Shown here: positions 3,661 to 27,233 of the stretch, piece by piece
Position numbering within the stretch: position 1 is the stretch's first letter
Layout: each line of letters starts with the position of its first letter
Assembly: GCA_025352065.1 (NCBI GenBank)
Contig: JANXUC010000067.1
Location: 1-32,703 of the forward strand
Length of the DNA stretch: 32,703 bases
Reading direction: 5' to 3'
Origin: Acidobacteriaceae bacterium
GTDB taxonomy: Bacteria > Acidobacteriota > Terriglobia > Terriglobales > Acidobacteriaceae
Program-made: the position numbers and the translations under genes
Notes under the pieces: model-generated
What the model was told of the DNA's origin: nothing
The model's database searches: none
The model's input: only the letters and a program-made list of their open reading frames with translations

Positions 3661-3736
3661 TGGTGGCCAGGGACGGACTTGAACCGCCGACGCCAGCCTT
3701 TTCAGGGCTGCGCTCTACCACCTGAGCTACCTGGCC
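3661..3736 (-). tRNA. tRNA-Phe (GAA anticodon)
   Basis: The minus strand folds as a full cloverleaf. The acceptor arm GGCCAGG pairs with CCTGGCC, the D-arm has AGCTCAGGTGGTAGAGC, the anticodon stem AGCC/GGCT encloses the loop CTGAAAA with anticodon GAA, and the T-arm has GGTTCAAGTCC. The discriminator base is A and the CCA end is encoded. The gene decodes UUC/UUU. Its 3' end faces the truncated integrase, so it is the likely attachment site of the island to the left. I did not find a second copy of the tRNA 3' end further left within the window. Confidence 0.97.
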
Positions 3737-24101: not shown

Positions 24102-25091
24102 GTGAGCACACCCACCGTCATTATCGGGAAAGAAGTTTTCGAACTGCTGCGGGATGACCTCGCCGCGATTGAGCGAGAGTTTGGGCGCGACACCGTCTCG
24201 AATGTGGCCGCCATCACGGAAATTGGCGAATACCTGCGCGGCGGCGGTGGCAAGCGGATTCGTCCCGCGGTACTGCTACTTTCCTCGAAACTCTTCAACT
24301 ATGAAGGTCGCGGTGCGGTACGTCTCGGCGCTGTGATGGAGATTATCCACACCGCTACCTTGGTTCATGACGACATCATCGACGAGGCACAAACCCGCCG
24401 CGGACGTCCCGCCGCCAACACGCAATGGGGAAACTCGAAATGCGTGCTGGCTGGCGATTGGCTTTACATGCAGTCGTTTCGCATCGCCTTGCAGGAACGT
24501 AATCTAAGAATTCTCGACGCCCTGATCGAGTTGACCCAACAGATGGTCGAGGGCGAGCTTCTGCAAATGGAAAAGCTCGGCAAGTGCATTTCGCAGGAAG
24601 AGCACTTCGACCTCATTTACCGCAAGACAGCGTGCCTGTTCTCAGTTTGCATGCGCATGGGAGCAATTCTTGGCAATGCCTCGCCGCAGGACGAAGAAAA
24701 GGTTGCACAATATGGACGCGATTTGGGCATGGCGTTCCAAATTGTCGATGACGTTCTCGATCTGACCGCCTCCGAAAGCGTGCTGGGCAAGCCCGTTGCC
24801 AGCGATCTGCGCGAAGGCAAGGCAACGATGGCCGTGATTCACGCGCTGGAACGCTGCTCGCCAGAAGAGCACGCACGCATCGAATCAGTGCTAAGAAACC
24901 GCGCCTTCAACGGCGTAACCCACGAACAGATTCTTGAAATTCTGAACAAATACGGTTCCATCGACACCGCCCACAGCCGCGCGGCTGAATACGCCGAGTC
25001 AGCCCGCAAGGCCATCTGCACGTTCCCGGACTCGGAGATTAAGCGCGCGCTGCTCTGGGCTCCCGACTTCGTCGTTTCGCGAGAGAAGTAG
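24102..25091 (+). CDS. Polyprenyl (isoprenoid) diphosphate synthase
   Basis: The 329-residue all-trans prenyltransferase has the first aspartate-rich motif DDIID (90-94) in LVHDDIIDEAQTRRG and the second motif DDVLD (216-220) in FQIVDDVLDLT, plus GKRIRP (50-55) and YRKTACLFS (173-181). Such enzymes add isopentenyl units to an allylic diphosphate; in this size class the product is usually the side chain of menaquinone or ubiquinone. Chain length is not settled: the residues before DDxxD are IIHTATLVH, and the absence of bulky aromatics there points to a long chain. It starts at GTG 24102, 43 bases after the YajQ-family gene, without a strong ribosome site. Confidence 0.93.
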   Translation: MSTPTVIIGKEVFELLRDDLAAIEREFGRDTVSNVAAITEIGEYLRGGGGKRIRPAVLLLSSKLFNYEGRGAVRLGAVMEIIHTATLVHDDIIDEAQTRRGRPAANTQWGNSKCVLAGDWLYMQSFRIALQERNLRILDALIELTQQMVEGELLQMEKLGKCISQEEHFDLIYRKTACLFSVCMRMGAILGNASPQDEEKVAQYGRDLGMAFQIVDDVLDLTASESVLGKPVASDLREGKATMAVIHALERCSPEEHARIESVLRNRAFNGVTHEQILEILNKYGSIDTAHSRAAEYAESARKAICTFPDSEIKRALLWAPDFVVSREK

Positions 25092-25121: not shown

Positions 25122-25505
25122 CTAGCCCCTCTTCACCGCAATTCCCATCATTTCAAACCGCCCGTTCAGCAACAGCGGTCCCGACCCCAAAAACGCTCTC
25201 GCAGGAAATTGTCCTGAAAAGTGCGTTACATATTCCTCGTTGAACTTGTTCCACAAAGAAACATCGGGACAGAACACCTGCACCCAAACCAGGTCGTTCA
25301 TCGTCATGCCGCTCTGGGCCAGAACGTCCTCAAACCCCGCAAACAGCAGTTCCAATTCGCGCTCGATTTCTTTGGCAGCCACGCCGGTGTCCGGGTCAAT
25401 TCCAATTCGCCCCGAAACATATAGCGTGTCATTCACCAGCACCGCATCGCTAAACGGCAGGTTCGGACGCCTTACCCCCAAGTTGATGTATTCACGTTTT
25501 GCCAC
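25122..25505 (-). CDS. RidA/YjgF-family protein
   Basis: The 127-residue protein has the RidA fold pattern: NLPFSDAVLVNDTLYVSGRIGIDPDTG, then ELELLFAGFEDVLAQSGMTMNDLVWVQVFCPDVSLWNKFNEEY, and PARAFLGSGPLLLNGRFEMMGIAV. Family members are trimeric and deaminate reactive enamine or imine intermediates. The arginine in PARAF matches the family's active-site arginine, while the usual acidic residue in the closing VEIEAIA segment reads FEMMGIAV. It may thus belong to a side subgroup, so the substrate is open. It starts at GTG 25505 with a strong GGAGG. It is convergent with the polyprenyl synthetase and divergent from the DedA-rhodanese gene. Confidence 0.9.
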   Translation of the reverse strand: MAKREYINLGVRRPNLPFSDAVLVNDTLYVSGRIGIDPDTGVAAKEIERELELLFAGFEDVLAQSGMTMNDLVWVQVFCPDVSLWNKFNEEYVTHFSGQFPARAFLGSGPLLLNGRFEMMGIAVKRG

Positions 25506-25565: not shown

Positions 25566-26540
25566 ATGGACCAGTTTCTCACTTTATTTGCGCGTCACGG
25601 CTACAGCTTACTGGCTTTGATAGTTTTTCTCGAAGCCGTCGGCCTACCTGTGCCCGCCGCGTTGGCACTCCTAGCGGCGGGCGCTGCGAGCTCTCTGCAC
25701 ATCATGCAGCCGCTCACTGCGGTGATGCTGGCGGTTGCCGCGATGGTCGCTGGCGACGTGCTCATGTTCTGGATCGGCCGTGTTTCGGGCTGGGTGCTCC
25801 TCGGCTTCCTTTGCCGCGTTTCCATGAATCCGGAAACTTGCATCCTCCGCTCTGCGGAATCGTTTTACAAGCGCGGCAAGGCGACCTTGCTGTTCGCAAA
25901 ATTTATTCCCGGTCTGAACACGATGGCTCCGCCGCTGGCTGGAAGTATGCGAATGCCCCCCTGGAAGTTCTTGCGCTTCGATGCGGCGGGAGCGTCTTTT
26001 TACGTTCTCGCCTACGGCGGCGCTGGCTTCTTGTTCAGCGATTTCATGCGCACGATTACCAACGGACTGGCAGTTGCGTCGCACACCTTCACGATTCTGC
26101 TCTTGATCGGTGCGTTCGCGTATCTTGCTTACCGCATCTGGGCCTATCGCAAACAGCGGATATATCGTGTCGCTCCGCGCGTCGCAGTCAAAGAGCTTTT
26201 TGAACTTTCGCAAGCGGAAGAAGAACGCGAGCGTATCCTGATTGCGGACGTACGCAGCCACGGATACTACGATTCCGGCGCACAGCGAATTCACGGCTCC
26301 ATTCGTATCGAACCCAACAATCTGGACAGCGAAGCCGCGAATCTGCCTCGCGATAAGCACATCTACCTCTACTGTACTTGACAGCGCGAGGCCACCAGCG
26401 CCCGTGTGGCGCACTTACTTCGCGAACGAGGATTCAACGCGTTCTACATTGTCGGCGGATTGGAGGCCTGGCGGAAAGCTGGGTACCCACTGGAATCCGC
26501 GCCGCATGACGATCTGGTAAAGCTACCGACATTTGCTTAA
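25566..26540 (+). CDS. DedA-family membrane protein fused to a rhodanese domain, with in-frame TGA at the catalytic cysteine position (candidate selenoprotein)
   Basis: Residues 1-205 are a DedA-family membrane protein with multiple membrane segments (ALIVFLEAVGLPVPAALALLAAG at the start, FAKFIPGLNTMAPPLAGSMRMP in the middle). After a charged linker, a rhodanese domain begins near residue 215 (ILIADVRSHGYYDSGAQRIHGSIRI). The frame reaches LYCT followed by TGA at 26379-26381, codon 272, then continues without interruption through QREATSARVAHLLRERGF and YIVGGLEAWRKAGYPLE to TAA. By the loop pattern C-x5-S-A the TGA replaces the sulfur-carrying catalytic cysteine. Two readings remain: selenocysteine insertion, giving 324 residues, or a nonsense mutation, giving a 271-residue protein without a working rhodanese. 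The intact downstream frame and exact position favour the first. A TATACT at 25545-25550 may be its -10. Confidence 0.7.
26391..26410 (+). promoter_or_regulatory. Hairpin just after the TGA, possible bacterial SECIS
   Basis: Nine bases after the TGA, GCCAC (26391-26395) can pair with GTGGC (26406-26410) around a 10-base loop CAGCGCCCGT. The spacing from UGA to the loop (about 14 bases) is near that of bacterial selenocysteine-insertion elements. The stem is short and the region is GC-rich, so chance pairing is quite possible. Confidence 0.35.
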
Positions 26541-26562
26541 GGCGATAGTGAAAAATAGACTT

Positions 26563-26646
26563 GTCATTCCGAGCACAGCGAGGAATCCCTTTATTTGCTG
26601 AAGACTTTCGGGTGGGGCAGGGATTCCTCGCTGTGAGCGGAATGAC
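26563..26646. repeat. Long inverted repeat, family A, copy 2
   Basis: Arms at 26563-26590 and 26619-26646 are 28 bases each and match as reverse complements at 26 positions. The left arm (GTCATTCCGAGCACAGCG...) differs from the copy at 7991 at three positions, and the 28-base centre is unrelated. It lies 22 bases after the DedA-rhodanese stop and 20 before the next start. Confidence 0.85.
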
Positions 26647-26666
26647 AAGGGCGATTATTGCTTGCT

Positions 26667-27233
26667 ATGAAAGAAAATCAAGAAATCGAGATCAAATTTC
26701 GCATCGAAGATTTAAAGCGTCTGCAGCGCAAGCTCCGTGCCGCCGGGTTTCGTTGCATTACACCGCGCACCCACGAACTGAATACTCTTTATGACCTGCC
26801 AGGCCAAATCCTTCGCAAGCGCGGCGATCTCCTCCGTCTGCGCAAATACGGAAATATATGGACTCTCACGCACAAGAACAAAGGTCGCACCGGACGCCAC
26901 AAAGCCCGCACGGAATACGAAACGCAAGCTTCCGACGGCCCGAAAATGGCTCTGATTCTCGAGTCTCTGGGCTATCGCACAAGCTTCGTCTACGAAAAGT
27001 TCCGCGCTGAATGGACCGACGGAACGGGGCACGTAGTGATCGACGAAACTCCCATCGGCAACATCGGAGAAATCGAAGGGTCCTCACGATGGATCGACGC
27101 CGCCGCAGGACAACTCGGCATCACGCCGGGCCAATACATCACGCAGTCCTACACCGAAATGTTCTTTGCCTGGAAGAAAGCAACGAAAAGCGCCGCTAAG
27201 GAAATGACTTTCGTGGCACTATCGAAGAAATAA
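26667..27233 (+). CDS. CYTH-domain (class IV adenylate cyclase-like) protein
   Basis: The 188-residue protein begins MKENQEIEIKFRI, the E-x-E-x-K motif that opens the CYTH tunnel fold. It continues with HELNTLYDLPGQILRKRGDLLRLRKYGNIWTLTHKNKG, where the R-L-R and T-x-K residues bind triphosphate. EYET (residues 89-92), EKFRAEW and a final EIEGSSRWID follow. CYTH proteins include class IV adenylate cyclases, thiamine triphosphatases and inorganic triphosphatases; the sequence alone does not choose between them. The ATG at 26667 is preferred over the upstream TTG because the fold's first strand starts right after it. It follows the family A repeat. Confidence 0.88.
   Translation: MKENQEIEIKFRIEDLKRLQRKLRAAGFRCITPRTHELNTLYDLPGQILRKRGDLLRLRKYGNIWTLTHKNKGRTGRHKARTEYETQASDGPKMALILESLGYRTSFVYEKFRAEWTDGTGHVVIDETPIGNIGEIEGSSRWIDAAAGQLGITPGQYITQSYTEMFFAWKKATKSAAKEMTFVALSKK

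Follow-up and report, generated by a model that had tools for sequence, protein, structure and literature searches.

A DedA-rhodanese membrane protein gene of Acidobacteriota with an in-frame TGA that is very probably read as selenocysteine

The interrupted gene and its homologues

The stretch of DNA analyzed here, which we call the window, comprises 32,703 nucleotides of contig JANXUC010000067.1 from an Acidobacteriaceae bacterium (GCA_025352065.1). It carries on its forward strand a gene for a DedA-rhodanese fusion (25566 to 26540), which starts with ATG at 25566, ends with TAA at 26538 to 26540 and holds a single in-frame TGA at 26379 to 26381. Reading through this codon gives a protein of 324 amino acids with the putative selenocysteine (Sec) at residue 272, between the flanks LYCT and QREATSARVA, and thus bears out the earlier note, which had described this TGA in a frame that stays open to the TAA. 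The gene assignment combines the read-through with Pfam matches and with the homologue column described below. Residues 30 to 154 (25653 to 26027) match the DedA/VTT membrane domain PF09335 at 44.8 bits (gathering score, 33.9 bits), and residues 220 to 304 (26223 to 26477), a segment that spans the TGA, match the rhodanese domain PF00581 at 40.4 bits (gathering score, 22.2 bits). Structure prediction with the window protein and 34 relatives as input gave a mean pLDDT of 86.5, and the top matches of the model among solved structures are rhodaneses, in comparisons that give ranges and not residues. Standard gene reading ends at the TGA in such genes, and these data indicate that a seemingly broken DedA-rhodanese gene is almost certainly a working gene.

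Upstream of the fusion gene lie a polyprenyl synthetase gene (24102 to 25091, forward strand) and an L-PSP/RidA-type gene (25122 to 25505, reverse strand), with a CYTH-domain gene following downstream (26658 to 27233, forward strand). The polyprenyl synthetase and CYTH genes are neighbors in close relatives too, and the L-PSP/RidA-type gene is sometimes retained. In the flanks of 30 loci, the window included, polyprenyl synthetase occurs in 15/30 and CYTH in 17/30; since these flanks are about 1.5 kb long, the absence of a neighbor means little. None of the three families was found among ten genes around five other TGA-bearing members. Between the fusion and CYTH genes, a 31-nt inverted repeat (26560 to 26649; 94% complementary, arms 28 nt apart) resembles a terminator or a dispersed palindromic element. 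In the Rfam comparison, only an ordinary tRNA gene (3664 to 3736, reverse strand, 66 bits) exceeds the gathering score anywhere in the window.

We searched 100 relatives, with matches in 98, and took 70 fusion loci, the window included, 30 of them from the search output and 40 fetched by place. Two places each come from G025, G049, G050 and G051, one locus (L044) has its start cut by a contig end, and, among the matches listed, two lower ones of fusion length (G039 and G045, neither shown with a stop) are omitted from the set. The protein alignment has 69 rows, because L082 has a TAA in its frame and was omitted. Of the 70 fusions, 45 have TGA in the column in question and 25 have a Cys codon, and in the TGA loci other than the window's the frame stays open 3' of the TGA for as far as the rhodanese domain extends, with its protein sequence conserved. 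The alignment of homologues is thus in line with the argument of the earlier note that this TGA is not a chance mutation. In a tree of the 70 fusions built with the column masked, the Sec/Cys state changes at least 8 times, 7 of these changes being forced by well-supported branches.

A true stop at this codon, be it in a pseudogene, through a read error or as a deliberate truncation that leaves a DedA domain with half a rhodanese, is hardly credible. TGA does end 2 of the 16 window ORFs checked (the fusion ORF is among the 16, and the two were not family-checked), but the recurrence of TGA in one column in 45/70 loci ahead of conserved protein, the presence of Cys and no third residue in all 25 others, and selection at both the protein and the synonymous level on codons +6 to +10 in the TGA groups all speak against it. 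We reject pseudogene, read error and truncation on the recurrent column together with the downstream selection, a read error in particular since TGA recurs at the same place in 44 more of the 70 loci. Genome-wide reassignment of TGA is unlikely, since TGA still terminates other ORFs in the window.

Matches to the fusion family at E ≤ 1e-40 were found in 71 of the 396 genomes drawn, in both TGA and Cys forms, with a few being partial or DedA only. As judged from these sequences, the DedA-rhodanese fusion family is widespread in Acidobacteriota and a relative of the CxU rhodaneses. An additional set of 264 relatives, whose titles name mainly Acidobacteriota, plus Nitrospira and a few others, is biased to Cys forms because the search pattern requires Cys, and was kept out of all TGA/Cys counts.

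Selenocysteine machinery and a SECIS-like hairpin

The window's own genome (G000; completeness, 98.47%) holds the Sec machinery that the earlier note had proposed to look for, namely, tRNA-Sec, SelA, SelB and SelD. The tRNA-Sec scores 75.4 bits and is assigned the type tRNA-SeC by ARAGORN, with a tRNA-Ser as second-best match (47.3 bits), and profile matches over the cut-off were obtained for selA (545 bits), selB (384 bits) and selD (369 bits). The selD gene (L018, G000:C80:71799-72731) itself holds one in-frame TGA and is thus probably a selenoprotein gene as well; in the part of the deep-Sep paper that was available, three known selenoproteins are counted in one Acidobacteriota genome, none of them being named there.

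Among the homologues, tRNA-Sec was found (E ≤ 1e-9) for 41/45 TGA loci versus 6/25 Cys loci, the latter being six Cys-type loci in genomes that have tRNA-Sec (Fisher, P = 1.5e-8, with loci taken as independent and four genomes supplying two each). All genomes of the four TGA loci without a tRNA-Sec match (completeness, 75 to 95%) have selA at 529 to 561 bits. A closer search of these four exceptions and of G055 gave best tRNA-Sec matches of 45 to 50 bits, near the level of the tRNA-Ser in G000. A phylogeny-aware test of the Sec/tRNA-Sec association went in the expected direction and was not significant (median P = 0.125), the independent pairs (on average 3.6 concordant versus 0.2 discordant) being too few for significance. 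G055 carries a Cys copy within a TGA clade, with no tRNA-Sec at E ≤ 1e-9, a best match on re-search of 47.2 bits that barely exceeds the 47-bit cut-off, and no selA over the cut-off. The fusion family offers a natural comparison of Sec and Cys, in which G055 would represent a Sec codon changed to Cys, with selA and a clear tRNA-Sec missing and the protein kept.

Downstream of the TGA lies a SECIS-like hairpin (26398 to 26412, forward strand) with a 5-bp stem (GCGCC/GGCGC) and the loop CGUGU at 26403 to 26407. When given no structure, RNAalifold returned one hairpin for the 45 TGA loci, pairing columns 20 to 24 with columns 30 to 34 (counted from the T of the TGA), with an energy of −8.83 kcal/mol versus −0.05 kcal/mol for the 25 Cys loci, which show nearly no structure. 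All five pairs are present in 43/45 TGA loci and four pairs in 2/45, and among the 25 Cys loci five pairs are found in 2, four in 8 and two or three in 15; in G055, a mismatch interrupts the hairpin and the loop G is gone. The hairpin is not always present in single-sequence folds, and when RNAalifold was applied from −30 to +72 to look for a lower stem that would extend the SECIS, it returned the 5-bp stem alone. The limits given for bSECIS elements are a loop of 3 to 9 nt, a stem of 4 to 16 bp, a G in the first two loop positions, 16 to 37 nt from UGA to loop and a minimum free energy of at most −7.5 (PMC13188914, section 5), and the window's hairpin lies within all of them (5-nt loop, 5 bp, G at position 2, 21 nt, and −7.6 kcal/mol for the 15-nt hairpin).

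To these loci we added 36 further TGA loci that were picked because they bear TGA (25 DedA fusions, 10 rhodanese-only frames and 1 antiporter fusion). Loop position 2 is G in all 81 TGA loci, and the pair 22-32 is G-C in 77/81 and A-U in 4/81, with both-side changes seen at the pair 21-33 too. The covariation is modest, with compensatory changes in 7 cells of 2 pairs, one pair invariable and the outer pair unpaired in 11/80 distinct rows; the count of pairs with double changes was reached in 29/500 shuffles, and a control slid by +1 gave 9 double-change cells although only 30.8% of its cells pair. In each of the two TGA groups (27 and 18 loci), codons +6 to +10 rank among the gene's strongest columns for synonymous conservation. 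For the Cys forms, scored on 23 loci with L033 and L049 omitted, the value for the 8 columns that could be scored between +1 and +20 is 0.087, lower than the 0.158 of the remaining gene; of codons +6 to +10, only +7 and +10 are among these eight. These comparisons indicate that a SECIS-like element, as sought in the earlier note, follows the TGA and is under selection, being kept with TGA and mostly decayed with Cys.

The codon before the TGA (26376 to 26378 in the window) is ACU in 37/45 TGA fusions and 0/25 Cys fusions. Among the 36 further TGA loci it is ACU in 9, so that ACU is probably lineage-specific, and we dropped it as a context signal for the TGA.

The UGA might instead be read as another amino acid, through near-cognate suppression or as Cys when selenium is short. 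Cys is the sole other residue in the column, for which reason a protein with Cys here would probably remain functional, but the Sec machinery in G000, a hairpin intact mainly alongside TGA, and the Cys copy of G055, which sits within a TGA clade in a genome with no clear tRNA-Sec and no selA over the cut-off, make this reading very unlikely. We conclude that TGA 26379-26381 is very probably read as Sec in a DedA-rhodanese membrane protein. The selenoprotein reading of the earlier note is thus strongly supported by the machinery, the TGA/Cys column and the hairpin, about as strongly as sequence alone permits; of the findings that it had named as speaking against it, the machinery proved to be present, the TGA to be no read error and the relatives to be undisrupted downstream.

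The C-x-U motif among rhodaneses

All 69 aligned fusions have Cys270 (26373 to 26375, forward strand) and either Sec or Cys at residue 272, so that the site is of the C-x-U type; such a pair of Cys270 and Sec272 would be suited to forming a selenenylsulfide. Both residues are candidates for the canonical catalytic position, and the alignments disagree between them. The canonical Cys falls on residue 272 in four alignments to solved rhodaneses that are gapless at the loop and anchored on the following helix (both domains of 6mxv, again 6mxv domain 1, and 1yt8 domain 2), and on residue 270 in an alignment of 6mxv domain 2 with a two-residue gap that is anchored on the preceding strand, as well as with two ordinary CGSGYRS rhodaneses of relatives (L256 and L257). 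The Alr3790 chains, aligned as well, have no Cys at the loop position, and in the predicted model the strand ends at residue 269 and the helix starts at residue 273. The earlier placement of the TGA at the catalytic cysteine fits the four gapless alignments, while the gapped one, L256 and L257 put the TGA two codons 3' of the canonical Cys codon.

With respect to known selenoproteins, a 2026 review describes, in the part available, five rhodanese-type forms, including the CxU form NF041203, and its main text contains none of the words DedA, VTT and antiporter (PMC13188914). NF041203 (rhodanese_LYCAU, "rhodanese-like form 3") shares the C-x-U/C motif, found in the rhodanese loop of the window protein, and is that protein's best NCBIfam match at 82 bits, which is nevertheless below the 115-bit cut-off; with 126 amino acids, the model has no room for a membrane domain. 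None of the 13 NCBIfam matches of the window protein is a model for a Sec-containing DedA-rhodanese. TsoB (NF045694), a rhodanese/DsbD fusion-like selenoprotein, likewise joins a rhodanese-like domain to a second domain and contains Sec, but differs in its partner domain and in its UxxxxU motif (PMC13188914, in the part available), with the window protein scoring 17 bits against a cut-off of 805. Cys-type fusions annotated as "DedA family protein/thiosulfate sulfurtransferase GlpE," such as PA1209 of P. aeruginosa, have the same domain order, and one from Xanthomonas sacchari, compared by eye, shares the C..C segment of the DedA part and has YCAC in its rhodanese, with Cys where the window protein has Sec. 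PMC10127716 mentions DedA-rhodanese fusions and PMC12893004 mentions PA1209, with no word of a Sec form in the parts of these papers that were available. We found no report of a Sec-containing DedA-rhodanese fusion in the part of the open-licence literature covered, which agrees with the earlier view that such a form would be less familiar; CxU rhodaneses and Cys-type fusions are each already described, and what would be new is their Sec-containing combination.

Ten short rhodanese matches that were selected for TGA (L171 to L180; the frame of L174 is not properly closed) have the TGA in a YCTU motif and the same SECIS-like hairpin, and three rhodanese-only TGA frames scanned on NF041203 reached 85 to 109 bits, below the 115-bit cut-off. 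Eight (L247 to L250 and L252 to L255) of another twelve rhodanese matches, all listed as lacking TGA, have YCTC, indicating that Cys-type CxC rhodaneses are common in the relatives. In G014, a 540-aa frame (L181:478-2097, forward strand) combines a K+/H+ antiporter-like domain with a rhodanese that carries FCAU (TGA) and the same hairpin, and is a candidate for another membrane selenoprotein.

The DedA domain and a possible relay

In the DedA domain, Cys83 (25812 to 25814, forward strand), Cys92 (25839 to 25841, forward strand), D64 and K112 are invariant in 69/69 fusions, and E23 is present in 67/69. In the part of PMC10127716 that was available, an acidic pair and two arginines of DedA are linked to undecaprenyl-phosphate flipping, the second acidic residue lying in the first reentrant helix and the arginines in the second. 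We observe no acidic residue at positions 31 to 33 (in all rows at 31 and 33, and in the 59/69 rows covered by the list for 32), and position 118, where arginine is expected, is N, S, G, A or T across the fusions, with positions matched to YghB residues by our own reading by eye. At the flipping-linked sites, likewise read by eye, the window fusion has E23 only, K112 and N118, and the canonical DedA protein of G000 (contig C27) has E/E and R/R. The window protein shares the VTT domain with the COG0586 DedA flippases (UptA and YghB), but it matches UptA models at 27 to 33 bits, far under their cut-offs of 250 to 300, and its flippase-linked residues appear changed. Apparently lacking residues linked to undecaprenyl-phosphate flipping, the DedA domain of the fusion is unlikely to be a standard flippase.

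The best explanation of the locus starts with UGA 26379 being decoded as Sec by tRNA-Sec and SelB, guided by the hairpin at 26398 to 26412, to give a membrane domain of the DedA type and, C-terminal to it, a rhodanese domain that would lie on the cytoplasmic side. Sec usually replaces the attacking thiol. Of the pair Cys270/Sec272, it is therefore more likely Sec272 that would accept sulfane sulfur, with the other member resolving via a selenenylsulfide. The rhodanese domain would then act as a fast persulfide/disulfide exchanger and not as a simple cyanide:thiosulfate transferase, and might swap electrons or sulfur with Cys83 and Cys92 of the DedA domain. For these two residues, whose region of the predicted model has a pLDDT of 63 to 72, we propose a role from conservation alone, and the chemistry draws on what is known of rhodaneses and thiol oxidoreductases. 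Our best guess at the function is a membrane-bound persulfide/thiol exchanger, a mechanism that we offer as a whole only tentatively, with the balance somewhat against it.

A more specific version, which we regard as doubtful, is a membrane selenol-thiol relay in which a nonflipping DedA domain with C83/C92 trades electrons or sulfane sulfur with the C-x-U rhodanese. If true, this relay would be a new kind of membrane redox or sulfur carrier across Acidobacteriota, with Sec and Cys interchangeable, and its SECIS type would be common to standalone Sec-rhodaneses and to those fused to a K+/H+ antiporter. It is also possible, if rather unlikely, that the selenoprotein has a DedA domain that still flips undecaprenyl-phosphate or another lipid, with the Sec-rhodanese as a mere redox regulator. 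Such a function would fit the invariant D64 and K112 and the nearly invariant E23, the adjoining polyprenyl synthetase gene, seen in close relatives too, and the occurrence of rhodanese fusions within the COG0586 UndP-flippase subfamily, reported in the available part of PMC10127716, where the connection of the rhodanese domain to undecaprenyl phosphate is called unclear. The lack of an acidic residue at 31 to 33, the non-Arg residue at 118 and K112 in place of the other arginine, in the by-eye matching to YghB, argue against it. A Sec-containing DedA-rhodanese would connect the DedA membrane family with the chemistry of selenium, and one reference cited in the available part of PMC10127716 has a title that links a DedA protein to selenite resistance.
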